From positions 1 to 13,926 of the forward strand of contig JAFGJF010000493.1 in the NCBI GenBank assembly GCA_016929205.1: 13,926 nucleotides of DNA. The letters run 5' to 3'. Both the position numbers and the translations under genes were made by a program. Below are positions 4,023-13,534 of this stretch, piece by piece (position 1 is the stretch's first letter; each line of letters starts with the position of its first letter). The DNA comes from Anaerolineae bacterium. GTDB lineage: Bacteria; Chloroflexota; Anaerolineae; JAFGEY01. Under the pieces are notes generated by a model. It ran no database searches and had not been told where the DNA came from. It saw only the letters and a program-made list of their open reading frames with translations.

Positions 4023-4039
4023 GTTATTAACTGAAAAAC

Positions 4040-4224
4040 TATCAAGGTACTCTATGCCCGGATGCAATGAGTTGGCGAAATGACTCCAGTTGGAGTCTCC
4101 GCCAGGGGGAAGCCGGTGGCTGACAAAAGCCGAAAAGACAGCTTTTGTTTAGGAGGCCGGCGCTGTCCCGCAACTGTGATCTAGAAATTATGGTTTCTAG
4201 TAAGCCAGATTACCCGCCTTGATA
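4040..4224 (+). promoter_or_regulatory. Cobalamin (adenosylcobalamin) riboswitch
   Basis: The aptamer is complete. P1 is TATCAAGG (4040-4047) with CCTTGATA (4217-4224). The conserved core GGGGGAAGCCGGTG (4105-4118) and GCTGTCCCGCAACTGTGA (4162-4179) are present, as is the B12 box AAGCCAGATTACCCGCC (4202-4218). Peripheral stems are perfect: GACTCC/GGAGTC (4082-4097), CAAAAGC/GCTTTTG (4124-4130 with 4141-4147) and CTAGAAA/TTTCTAG (4181-4200). In this riboswitch family, ligand binding turns expression off. The following genes fit B12 uptake and adenosylation. Confidence 0.97.
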
Positions 4225-4349
4225 CATACGTTTGCCATCAGAAAGCCCTCGTGGATAAGGGAGACAGTGGTCTGCGACATGCGCTATTTCGGGTTGTTCA
4301 AAACACTGCGAGATAGGCACCGTGGTCATATAACCATCGTCGTCGCGAT

Positions 4350-11183: not shown

Positions 11184-11265
11184 ATGGCCACAAAGGAAGG
11201 TTGCTTCATTCCGGATCACCAAAGGAGGCGCCGATAAGCTCATAGACCAACAACAGGAGAAAAAA

Positions 11266-11410
11266 AGCGCATGGCCCACGCCCCGTGCGTGGGTGACGAG
11301 GAAGGGGGTTCCCGGCGTCACAGCCGGGCCAAGGGCGATGAAAAAAGATCATCGCTCGAAAATCGACAGATCAGCGGAAGCCCCCAGGCCGTTTCCACCG
11401 GCCTTTTGAC
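11266..11410 (+). ncRNA. glmS ribozyme (glucosamine-6-phosphate-activated self-cleaving RNA), with an inserted two-hairpin segment
   Basis: The order of conserved glmS ribozyme elements is present. The cleavage-site block AGCGCATGG (11266-11274; consensus about AGCGCCUGG) would be cut between A11266 and G11267. P1 is CCCACGC/GCGTGGG (11275-11281 with 11287-11293). TGACGAGG (11294-11301) follows, including the guanine proposed as general base in characterised ribozymes. P2 is GGGGG/CCCCC (11304-11308 with 11381-11385), then ATCGA (11362-11366) and ATCAGCGGAAG (11370-11380). CGC (11268-11270) can pair with GCG (11374-11376) as P2.2. A P3-like hairpin AGGCCG/CGGCCT (11386-11391 with 11399-11404) follows. 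Between GGTT and ATCGA about 51 extra bases form two hairpins: CCCGGC/GCCGGG (11311-11328) and a 9-bp stem (11333-11341 with 11349-11357). Lying upstream of glmS, it would shut glmS off when glucosamine-6-phosphate accumulates. I compared it with B. anthracis and B. subtilis ribozymes from memory. Confidence 0.75.
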
Positions 11411-11674
11411 CTTTCTCCTTCAATCAAGCGGGCAGATGGCGAAACCTAACGCCCCCTCGCCTGCCAGCCAGCGAACGCGCAAAACCCGTTGGGCGACCTC
11501 GGCACAATGGCGTTCGGCAGTGGAGCCTTTTTCCAGTCACAATTCAAGACGGTTACCGGGAACAGCCAACCCTGGTCAAGGTTGATCGGCGCTTGCGCGA
11601 TCGTGCCGTTTGCGCCAGCCCACGCCGGACCATCCAGTAGAATGTGACTAGTCGCTACACGAAGGAGAACAATC
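11411..11674 (+). other. Long untranslated spacer between the ribozyme and glmS
   Basis: No gene is supported. A near-palindrome GATC-G-GCGC-TT-GCGC-GATC lies at 11584-11602. TAGAAT at 11638-11643 is -10-like but has no -35. The glmS Shine-Dalgarno AAGGAG is at 11662-11667. I could not find the P4 domain that follows P3 in most glmS ribozymes. A short T-run follows GGAGCC near 11528, without a strong stem. Confidence 0.5.
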
Positions 11675-13534
11675 ATGTGCGGCATTGTCGGATATATCGG
11701 GCCACGCCAGGCTCCGCCTATCGTCATGGAAGGGCTGCGCCAGTTGGAATATCGCGGCTATGATTCGGCCGGGTTGGCGGTCATCGATGGAAAGGGCGAC
11801 CTGCAGGTGCGCCGCCAGAAAGGCAAACTGATCAACCTCGAAAGGCTGCTGCAAAACGATCCCGTCGCCGGGCACATTGCCATCGGCCACACCCGCTGGG
11901 CCACACACGGCCCGCCCTGCGAGCGCAACGCCCACCCCCACAGCAGTCCCGATGGCGAACTGGTCGTGGTGCAAAACGGGATCGTCGAAAATTTCGCCGA
12001 GCTGCGTCTCCGATTGCAGTCCGCCGGGTATTGTTTCAACAGCGACACGGACACCGAGGTGATCGTCCACTTGATCCACAGCCACTATCACAACGGCAGC
12101 GACGGCGACCTGGTTCGCGCCGTGCGCGCCGCGCTCGAGGAACTACAAGGTCCCAGCGCGATCGTCGTGCTCAGCAAGGCCCATCCTGGGCACCTGATCG
12201 CCGCCCGCCTGGGCAACGCCGGCGGCGTCGCGATCGGGTACGGCAATGGCGAAATGTTTGTCGCCAGCGACATCCCGGCCATTCTGCGCCACACGCGGCG
12301 CATGTGTTTTCTCGAGAACCGCCAGATGGCGATCGTCAGCGCCGGCGGCCTGGTCTTGACCGATTTGGCGGGCAACGCGGCCGTGCCCGAAAAAACAACC
12401 ATCGGCTGGGACCCCGTTGCGGCGGAAAAGGGCGCTTACCGCCATTTTATGCAAAAAGAGATTTACGAACAGGGGCGCAGCCTGGCCGACACACTGCGCG
12501 GGCGGCTGGATTTCAAGCGCCAGCGGGTGGTGCTCGACACGCTCAACCTGCTGCCAGAACAGGTGGCCCAATTATCCAAGATCACGATCATCGCCTGCGG
12601 GACGAGCTATTACGCCGGACTGGTCGGCAAGTTTATGATCGAGAACCTGGCGCGGCTGCCGGTCGAGGTCGATTACGGCAGCGAGTTCCGCTATCGCAGC
12701 CCGATCTTTGCTCCCGGACACATGGTGCTGGCGATCACCCAGAGCGGGGAGACGGTCGACACGCTGGCGGCGCTGGAAGAAGGGCGCGAGAACGGCGCGT
12801 TTACAGCAGCGATCGTCAACACGATTGGCAGCCAGGCCGCTCGCTTGTGCGATGGGGTGATGTACATGCAGGCCGGGCCGGAGATCGGCGTGGCCAGCAC
12901 CAAGGCCTTTACAACCTCGCTGGTCGATCTGTTCCTGCTGGCTGTTTACCTGGGACAGGAGCGCGGCCTGCTCGACGAGGCGCAACGCGCCGCGCTGATT
13001 CGCGCCGTCGTGGCCCTGCCGGGCCTGGCCGGGGAGCTGCTGGACGAGGCCCAGCACGGCTACCGCTACAAGTTCCTGGCCGAACGCTTTTACCAGTGCC
13101 ACAACGTGTTGTACCTGGGCCGGGGGATCAATTATCCCGTGGCGCTGGAAGGGGCGCTCAAGCTCAAAGAGATCAGCTATATCCACGCCGAAGGCTACCC
13201 GGCGGGAGAGATGAAACACGGCCCAATCGCGCTGATCGACGAGCACATGCCTACGGTCGTCGTCGCGCCACGAGACGGGGTCTATGACAAGATGATCAGC
13301 CAGATCGAACAGGTGCAGGCGCGCAACGGGCAGGTGCTGGCCGTGGCCTACGACGATGACGAGCCGATCCACGGCAAGGCCGACGAAGTGCTACCAATCC
13401 CGCGCACGCACGATCTGCTGACCCCGGTGCTGGGGGTGCTGCCGCTGCAACTGCTGGCCTACGAGATCGCGGTGCGGCGGGGGTGCGACGTGGACCAACC
13501 GAGGAACCTGGCGAAGAGCGTGACGGTCGAGTAA
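11675..13534 (+). CDS. glmS: Glutamine--fructose-6-phosphate aminotransferase (isomerizing)
   Basis: GlmS makes glucosamine-6-phosphate from fructose-6-phosphate and glutamine, the committed step towards UDP-GlcNAc and cell-wall amino sugars. The 619-residue protein has the full layout. An N-terminal class-II glutaminase starts with MCGIVGYIG, whose Cys2 is the nucleophile after Met removal, and continues with GHTRWATHG (71-79) and NGIVENF (101-107). Two SIS domains follow, marked by CGTSYYAG (308-315) and TQSGETVDT (355-363). The isomerase region HAEGYPAGEMKHGPIALID and the C-terminal NLAKSVTVE supply the expected Glu, His and Lys. ATG 11675 has AAGGAG seven bases upstream and begins at the obligatory MCGI. 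It is transcribed alone behind a long leader containing a glmS ribozyme, so feedback by its own product is likely. The assignment is very secure. Confidence 0.98.
   Translation: MCGIVGYIGPRQAPPIVMEGLRQLEYRGYDSAGLAVIDGKGDLQVRRQKGKLINLERLLQNDPVAGHIAIGHTRWATHGPPCERNAHPHSSPDGELVVVQNGIVENFAELRLRLQSAGYCFNSDTDTEVIVHLIHSHYHNGSDGDLVRAVRAALEELQGPSAIVVLSKAHPGHLIAARLGNAGGVAIGYGNGEMFVASDIPAILRHTRRMCFLENRQMAIVSAGGLVLTDLAGNAAVPEKTTIGWDPVAAEKGAYRHFMQKEIYEQGRSLADTLRGRLDFKRQRVVLDTLNLLPEQVAQLSKITIIACGTSYYAGLVGKFMIENLARLPVEVDYGSEFRYRSPIFAPGHMVLAITQSGETVDTLAALEEGRENGAFTAAIVNTIGSQAARLCDGVMYMQAGPEIGVASTKAFTTSLVDLFLLAVYLGQERGLLDEAQRAALIRAVVALPGLAGELLDEAQHGYRYKFLAERFYQCHNVLYLGRGINYPVALEGALKLKEISYIHAEGYPAGEMKHGPIALIDEHMPTVVVAPRDGVYDKMISQIEQVQARNGQVLAVAYDDDEPIHGKADEVLPIPRTHDLLTPVLGVLPLQLLAYEIAVRRGCDVDQPRNLAKSVTVE

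Follow-up and report, generated by a model that had tools for sequence, protein, structure and literature searches.

What becomes of a glmS ribozyme when two hairpins are inserted into its core? The question is raised by the glmS leader in a 13,926-nucleotide stretch of DNA from an Anaerolineae bacterium (hereafter the window), in which a preliminary description placed a glmS ribozyme with an interrupted core and offered two readings of the insert, a second sensing module or the mark of a decayed copy. Judged by comparison with related sequences, the leader is a genuine glmS ribozyme, and the insert in its core is widespread, covaries across relatives and is neither decayed nor unique to the window. 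We consider it very probable that this RNA is a Chloroflexota member of the glmS ribozyme class with a conserved, droppable structural side domain and with a helix (P0) of which one strand also complements the glmS ribosome-binding site. P0 and its link to the ribosome-binding site lie beyond the coordinates of the preliminary description and are the more surprising part.

A glmS ribozyme in the leader of glmS

The Rfam covariance model RF00234 matches positions 11255-11450 with 39.7 bits (cut-off 37) with the insert left in place; the E-value of 1.8e-6 takes in the whole window on both strands and 4227 families. AGCGC, GACGAGG, AUCGA and [GA]GCGG are all present in that order, and on re-reading the sequence every core block lies where the preliminary description had put it, exact to the base. 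The blocks are conserved in an alignment of 94 leaders. The bounds given earlier, 11266-11410, hold for these blocks and fall short of the full element, which apparently runs from 11255 to 11523 and includes P0, P3, P4 and the P3.1 partner (Table 1). A second model, R1, built from 39 two-hairpin leaders, matches 11255-11417 with 123.4 bits, the window being one of its 39 training rows. The element is the leader of an open glmS frame, which scores 759 bits with TIGR01135 (cut-off 418) and whose ATG at 11675 lies 298 nt past the last G of GCGG. By GlmS sequence, the nearest kin are Anaerolineae (63% identity to L001, and 71% over 217 columns to L184). A promoter scan for the transcription start of the leader found nothing.

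The P2.1 and P2.2 pseudoknot pairs (three each) are present in the window; they are invariant in the alignment of 39 leaders described below (A1), and covariation therefore speaks neither for nor against them. The support domain (P3, P4 and CCAC/GUGG) was located by position, P3.1 being read by eye, and a simple pattern finds P4 in 64/100 Chloroflexota leaders and the P3.1 partner in 36/100. Comparison with relatives suggests that this domain sits further downstream than Rfam places it. The Rfam placement of P4 in the window, where the match stops at 11450, is probably wrong, and the low RF00234 score follows from the insert and, probably, from this misplacement. An unconstrained fold of 11255-11530 yields P0, P1, P2, both insert hairpins and P3, with an energy modestly below that of shuffled sequences (z = -1.84; 6 of 200 shuffles were as good).

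Table 1. Predicted features of the glmS leader and its surroundings in the window
Feature	Position	Strand	Basis or remark
Predicted glmS ribozyme leader, P0 to P3.1 partner	11255..11523	+	RF00234, R1, location of P4 and P3.1
P0 5' strand AGGAGAAA, directly upstream of cleavage site	11255..11262	+	pairs perfectly over 8 bp with 11412-11419
Predicted cleavage site A(-1)/G1, in AGCGC	11266..11267	+	homology; numbering after PMC7125110; A and G invariant in 94 leaders
P2.2 5' strand CGCA, opposite 11373-11376	11268..11271	+	fourth pair A11271-A11373
P1 hairpin, arms 11274-11280/11288-11294	11274..11294	+	covarying helix
GACGAGG core block	11295..11301	+	invariant in 94 leaders; CGA 11297-11299 forms P2.1 with UCG 11363-11365
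P2 5' strand GGGGG, partner 11381-11385	11304..11308	+	double changes at 3/5 pairs, other 2 never vary
GGUU	last base 11310	+	sequence position
Insert hairpin 1, 6 bp, loop GUCACA	11311..11328	+	double changes at 7/7 pairs; 96.9% of cells paired (A2)
Junction CCAA, consensus CYAA	11329..11332	+	two As conserved at 99-100%
Insert hairpin 2, 8 bp, length varies in relatives	11333..11357	+	double changes at 5/5 pairs; 92.5% of cells paired (A2)
Junction GAAA	11358..11361	+	71/80 two-hairpin leaders; 87-100% column identity
AUCGA, cofactor-pocket strand	11362..11366	+	conserved at 98-100%; role of UCG as core 43-45 from PMC7125110
AUCAGCGG, contains P2.2 3' strand	11370..11377	+	position; alignment
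P2 3' strand CCCCC	11381..11385	+	pairs with 11304-11308
P3 hairpin	11386..11404	+	loop CCAC 11395-11398 is a possible partner of GUGG 11520-11523 (P3.1)
P0 3' strand (11412-11419) overlapping anti-Shine-Dalgarno UUCUCCUUC (11413-11421)	11412..11421	+	pairing tests
Extra hairpin GGCAG...CUGCC, between P0 and P4	11431..11465	+	fold
P4/P4.1 domain, CGAACGC 11472-11478/GCGUUCG 11510-11516	11472..11516	+	similar layout in relatives
glmS Shine-Dalgarno region GAAGGAGAA	11661..11669	+	9 pairs with 11413-11421
glmS, glutamine--fructose-6-phosphate transaminase	11675..13534	+	TIGR01135, 759 bits

Leaders used for comparison

RF00234 exceeds its cut-off at 5 of the 16 GlmS loci to which it was applied. 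Among 396 genomes of the same class it has matches with E-values up to 0.01 in 199, and 117 of these pass the cut-off. Eighty were taken from at least 120 further matches in near score order, so that weaker matches are under-sampled. In total, 112 of 195 records could be parsed, giving 106 distinct leaders, 100 from Chloroflexota (window included) and 6 from Bacillota. Seventeen unparsed loci (L081 onward) were read by eye and stand outside the class counts; among them L107, L141, L172, L180 and L188 (cut by the contig end) appear to have two hairpins, L192 has one, L142 and L167 lack the insert, and L146, L152 and L179 are sister RNAs (see below). Alignment A1 comprises 39 of 48 leaders chosen by length and P0 rules. 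Of 301 genomes sampled from across the phylum, 102 have R1 matches, with the insert present or absent; from this draw 20 leaders were picked by hand (non-randomly), of which 11 entered the two-hairpin alignment A2 (94 rows). A separate Bacillota set holds 50 loci and 5 earlier ones, of which 54/55 were parsed (L322 was missed, and L070 was misparsed). After length and N filters, the tests on the ribosome-binding site used 89, 79 or 73 leaders.

A helix joins the flanks of the ribozyme

The strand preceding the cleavage site can pair with the strand following P3. The resulting helix, P0, formed in the window by AGGAGAAA and UUUCUCCU, had been missed in the preliminary description. P0 strands pair better with their own partners than with swapped ones in 80 two-hairpin leaders (score 19.7 versus 15.6; 0/2000 permutations) and in 16 insert-free leaders (18.5 versus 15.1; 0/2000), and the excess survives thinning to 34 and to 21 leaders (0/5000 each). 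It is absent in four one-hairpin leaders (991/2000) and in six Bacillota leaders (258/2000), and in the 54 parsed Bacillota leaders the true partners have no advantage over swapped ones (2687/3000). These permutation tests ran on parsed leaders, free of the selection applied to A1; P0 counts made on A1 itself are biased upward, its rows having been picked for length and for at least six P0 pairs. Taken across relatives, the predicted P0 helix is supported by covariation.

The P0 3' strand and the glmS ribosome-binding site

In the window, UUCUCCUUC at 11413-11421 and GAAGGAGAA at 11661-11669 are exactly complementary to each other. The P0 3' strand pairs better with its own ribosome-binding site than with swapped sites in 73 leaders (0/5000 permutations), in 89 leaders (0/5000) and in 62 leaders at less than 80% GlmS identity (0/5000). 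The excess remains when the set is thinned further, to below 70% (n = 34; 0/5000) and below 65% identity (n = 21; 19/5000), and under a stricter length filter (n = 79, 0/3000; n = 32 at less than 70%, 18/3000). Control windows from the middle of the leader gave 590/3000 and 844/3000, and the 18 nt before the site gave 1005/3000 and, when thinned, a nominally low 86/3000. For the P0 5' strand against the site, the values run from 149/5000 in the unthinned set through 235/5000 and 1292/5000 to 2552/5000 below 65%. Along the leader, the stretch that best complements the site begins within the P0 3' zone for 32.5 of 79 leaders, where 6.0 would be expected, and for 12.8 of 32 (2.6 expected) after thinning. 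CUCC follows P3 in 31/73 leaders, the shuffles averaging 20.4 with a maximum of 30. The post-P3 strand of Bacillota has no excess complementarity to the site (914/3000).

The complementarity of P0 and the ribosome-binding site suggests, as a lead, a cleavage-gated translational switch. By analogy with the class, plentiful glucosamine-6-phosphate (GlcN6P) would bind beside AUCGA as an acid cofactor, and self-cleavage of the RNA between A11266 and G11267 would lower the expression of glmS. In the proposed switch, P0 would sequester the anti-ribosome-binding-site strand in the intact leader; the GlcN6P-driven cut would release the P0 5' strand, and the freed 3' strand would then cover the glmS ribosome-binding site.

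P0 may instead do no more than close the ribozyme like a clamp, shaping it or retaining the 5' piece after the cut; the complementarity to the site would then reflect sequence bias, and control would be exerted by cleavage and RNase J decay only, as in Bacillus. We see the chances of this explanation as evenly balanced. P0 is strong by itself, and since its 5' strand is rich in G, its 3' strand has to be rich in C, so that some matching to the site could arise from composition; the low value of the thinned control just before the site fits this. However, the excess of own pairs with the site outlasts thinning, and the stretch that best matches the site begins in that zone of P0 far more often than expected, both of which argue against bias as the whole explanation. 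Folding before and after the cut, calculated at equilibrium and without pseudoknots, favors the clamp in the window, where the site is paired with the post-P3 zone with probability 0.996 before and 0.9995 after cleavage and no switching is seen. Among relatives, accessibility of the site after the cut (changes above 0.1) is lower in 19/69 and higher in 6/69 two-hairpin leaders, with corresponding counts of 4/14 and 3/14 for insert-free, 2/4 and 0/4 for one-hairpin and 0/5 and 2/5 for Bacillota leaders; mean pairing of the site with the zone in the 69 two-hairpin leaders rises from 0.20 to 0.31 upon cleavage. As isolated duplexes in the window, P0 is worth -9.1 and the site duplex -12.0 kcal/mol, and a switch there would thus have to be kinetic, with P0 forming first during transcription.

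As to the decay route, TIGR00649 (MG423), a model of the RNase J family, scores above its cut-off in 9/9 Chloroflexota genomes tested and in 9/14 control genomes. Decay of the mRNA after the cut is known from Bacillus (PMC10907184, PMC11780869).

The two-hairpin insert is a covarying side domain

The two hairpins between GGUU and AUCGA are confirmed, and the stretch measures exactly 51 nt (11311-11361). It falls where RF00234 has 6 model positions and the window 57. In keeping with the preliminary description, most Firmicutes RNAs lack the insert: judged by spacing, 51/54 parsed Bacillota leaders have none. By the same measure, the 100 parsed Chloroflexota leaders divide into 80 with two hairpins, 4 with one and 16 without an insert, although one counted among the 80 (L098) proved on inspection to have its hairpin at another site.

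RNAalifold predicts both insert hairpins and P0 from A1 unasked. Standard pairs occupy 91.4% of the cells in A1 versus 70.8% when shuffled, and the covariation score is 0.573 versus 0.201 (0/500 shuffles), slid partners reaching at most 0.185. Every counted pair of hairpin 1 (7/7), hairpin 2 (5/5) and P0 (5/5) shows double changes. In the larger alignment A2, which was fitted to the model and leans toward it, 96.3% of cells are paired versus 66.0% shuffled, with a covariation score of 0.797 versus 0.216 (0/500).

Conservation within the insert is limited to junction nucleotides and a frequent GNRA cap, the helix letters being variable. The UU preceding hairpin 1 is conserved at 98-100%. Hairpin 1 has a median length of 18 and ends in a GNRA cap in 50/90 parsed leaders, whereas linker and hairpin 2 together span 14-85 nt. 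The side domain is laid out as UU, hairpin 1, CYAA, hairpin 2 and GAAA, between P2 and AUCGA. Its conservation pattern is consistent with the junction and hairpin 1 stacking on or docking against the core and stabilizing P2/P2.1, and with hairpin 2 pointing outward. A tetraloop contact would not apply in that form in the window, since the hairpin 1 loop there is GUCACA. A UAA/GAN internal-loop motif was considered at CYAA/GAAA; no outer closing helix was seen, and we do not claim it.

On a tree of 99 GlmS proteins, leaders with no or one hairpin are scattered among two-hairpin ones. The two-hairpin label changes 10 times versus 25.3 when shuffled, a count that does not tell gains from losses and in which L098 is mislabeled. 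The scatter fits a droppable helper domain with repeated loss and does not fit a ligand pocket.

It is very improbable that the insert is a second sensing module, in which the hairpins would recognize a further metabolite and control the ribozyme as a second input. Such a sensor would be well placed, the insert adjoining the strand of the cofactor pocket, and its CYAA and GAAA junctions are almost invariant. Yet the helix letters covary freely, the loop of hairpin 2 is conserved neither in sequence nor in length among relatives, near kin include insert-free and one-hairpin states, and no other Rfam family is listed inside the insert at E up to 1. From these comparisons we infer that the insert serves as a structural junction and not as an additional sensor.

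In the numbering of PMC7125110, the insert enters just before residues 42-45, of which 43-45 belong to the cofactor pocket; the same paper has single-base double-incorporation insertions tolerated better than deletions or base changes. Two Clostridia-class leaders (L331 and L332; 2/54 parsed Bacillota leaders) carry one hairpin at the site of the insert. In five Chloroflexota loci (L094, L103, L104, L111 and L120) a hairpin sits between AUCGA and GGCGG, and L138 has one at both sites. Together, the L331/L332 hairpins and those between AUCGA and GGCGG indicate that the core takes stems at more than one point. In another Clostridia leader (L322), the P1 region of the glmS ribozyme extends over ∼210 nt with repeated hairpins.

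An A-A pair is an ordinary state of the lineage

The fourth P2.2 pair of the window is A-A (11271/11373), as first described. Among the 106 distinct leaders, pair 5-53 is C-G in 57, A-A in 48 and U-G in one, with no C-A or A-G; the 54 leaders of the separate Bacillota set have C-G there in 52 cases, A-A in one and A-G in one. The A-A of the window thus is an ordinary state of its lineage. According to PMC7125110, pair 5-53 is poorly conserved in nature, yet point changes damage a C-G core; in an engineered core RNA with a C-G background, single changes at 5-53 other than C5U cost at least 200-fold. In L142 and L167, P2.2 reads GCGUU/AACGG, with C-G replaced by U-A at both pairs 4-54 and 5-53.

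That the window holds a decayed, inactive copy, as its long insert, A-A pair and low Rfam score might suggest, is likewise very improbable, given that the core blocks are intact (although at positions invariant in the 39 aligned leaders this is so by construction, the set including the window), that nearly half of the leaders share the A-A pair, that the insert covaries across relatives, that the score is accounted for by the insert and probably P4, and that the ribozyme precedes an open glmS frame.

Sister RNAs with a related core

Two R1 matches per genome occur in 15/301 genomes. The second copy lies before a gene for type I glutamine synthetase in L230, L232 and L234 (TIGR00653 above cut-off), where the gene lies 155-181 nt past the R1 match, and also in L152 and L284 (by protein motif), that is, in five genomes in all. 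GlcN6P is a feedback inhibitor of glutamine synthetase. A second type of sister RNA is followed by Ada-like genes (AraC and O6-methylguanine methyltransferase), often together with an EamA-type gene, at 11 loci identified by eye (L215, L216, L217, L218, L219, L220, L221, L224, L225, L227 and L231); the Ada-like genes were checked with Pfam in L215, L216 and L218 and EamA in L218, and they score below the Ada cut-off of NCBI. A pattern search for sister RNAs matched in 139/392 genomes, a figure not used as a count, as the pattern was too loose and its reversed control matched as well.

The sister RNAs retain the insert. The core of the Ada type reads [CU]ACGAGG, AUCGGAUAGAUCAGCGG or close to it, and GCUAA. 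The glutamine synthetase type and 9/11 Ada-type loci contain AGCGGCUG, L219 and L220 differing there. This sequence could let P2.2 form an unbroken helix that lacks the bulged residue 6. Deletion of residue 6 is harmful according to PMC7125110. That Chloroflexota glmS ribozymes are cleavage-gated translational switches, and that the same fold spawned glutamine synthetase and Ada-like sister RNAs without the bulged residue 6, which may sense while remaining uncut, is a tentative proposal that we regard as possible but rather unlikely.

The glmS ribozyme L228 (genome G194), which has a normal core and bears the insert, stands before a glutamate-synthase-like frame (PF01645) rather than glmS; this genome has a second R1 match.

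Elsewhere in the window, positions 4035-4235 match the cobalamin riboswitch RF00174 (36 bits). It stands ahead of a possible B12 uptake operon, made up of a frame that encodes a squalene-cyclase-like domain and, read by eye, an LPVSG tail, together with genes for a CobO/BtuR adenosyltransferase and for a CbiQ-like protein.

Comparison with known systems

The window shares with canonical glmS ribozymes (RF00234; Thermoanaerobacter tengcongensis and Bacillus) the cleavage motif, P1, P2, P2.1, P2.2, AUCGA, P3, P3.1, P4 and the position before glmS. It differs from them in the 51-nt two-hairpin insert, in P0, in A-A for C-G at 5-53 and in the extra hairpin between P0 and P4. Members with such an insert score too low under the current Rfam model. 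glmS ribozymes are said to be highly uniform, and all but two reportedly precede glmS (McCown and colleagues, 2011). The same work, by McCown, Roth and Breaker, reportedly describes Deinococcus-Thermus variants with additional stems in the catalytic core and altered supporting substructures. The likeness of these variants to the window, in having extra core stems, is drawn from that description; our own leader comparisons took in Chloroflexota and Bacillota. The suggestion that the insert widens the known architecture thus holds insofar as the insert lies outside the Rfam model and is weakened insofar as extra core stems as such appear to have precedents. The Clostridia-class L331 and L332 have their hairpin at the same site between P2 and AUCGA; unlike the window they have one only and lack the GAAA joint. 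The strand leading into the cofactor pocket naturally bears inserts of very different size. Among the titles and abstract openings listed, in a library lacking most subscription papers, none described a glmS variant from Chloroflexota, the P0 helix or a role as anti-Shine-Dalgarno strand.

glmS ribozymes are described as acting via mRNA decay. A 2024 review (PMC10907184) classes them as metabolite-responsive ribozymes and not as riboswitches, as they do not instruct the expression machinery, and calls for more examples. The riboswitch question becomes directly testable with a variant that is widespread in Chloroflexota and combines a side domain in the core with P0, a helix spanning the cleavage site, and a strand complementing the ribosome-binding site. 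In translational riboswitches, an anti-Shine-Dalgarno strand pairs either with an upstream partner or with the ribosome-binding site. The arrangement proposed for the window would differ in that the upstream partner would be cut off rather than displaced by ligand-induced folding.
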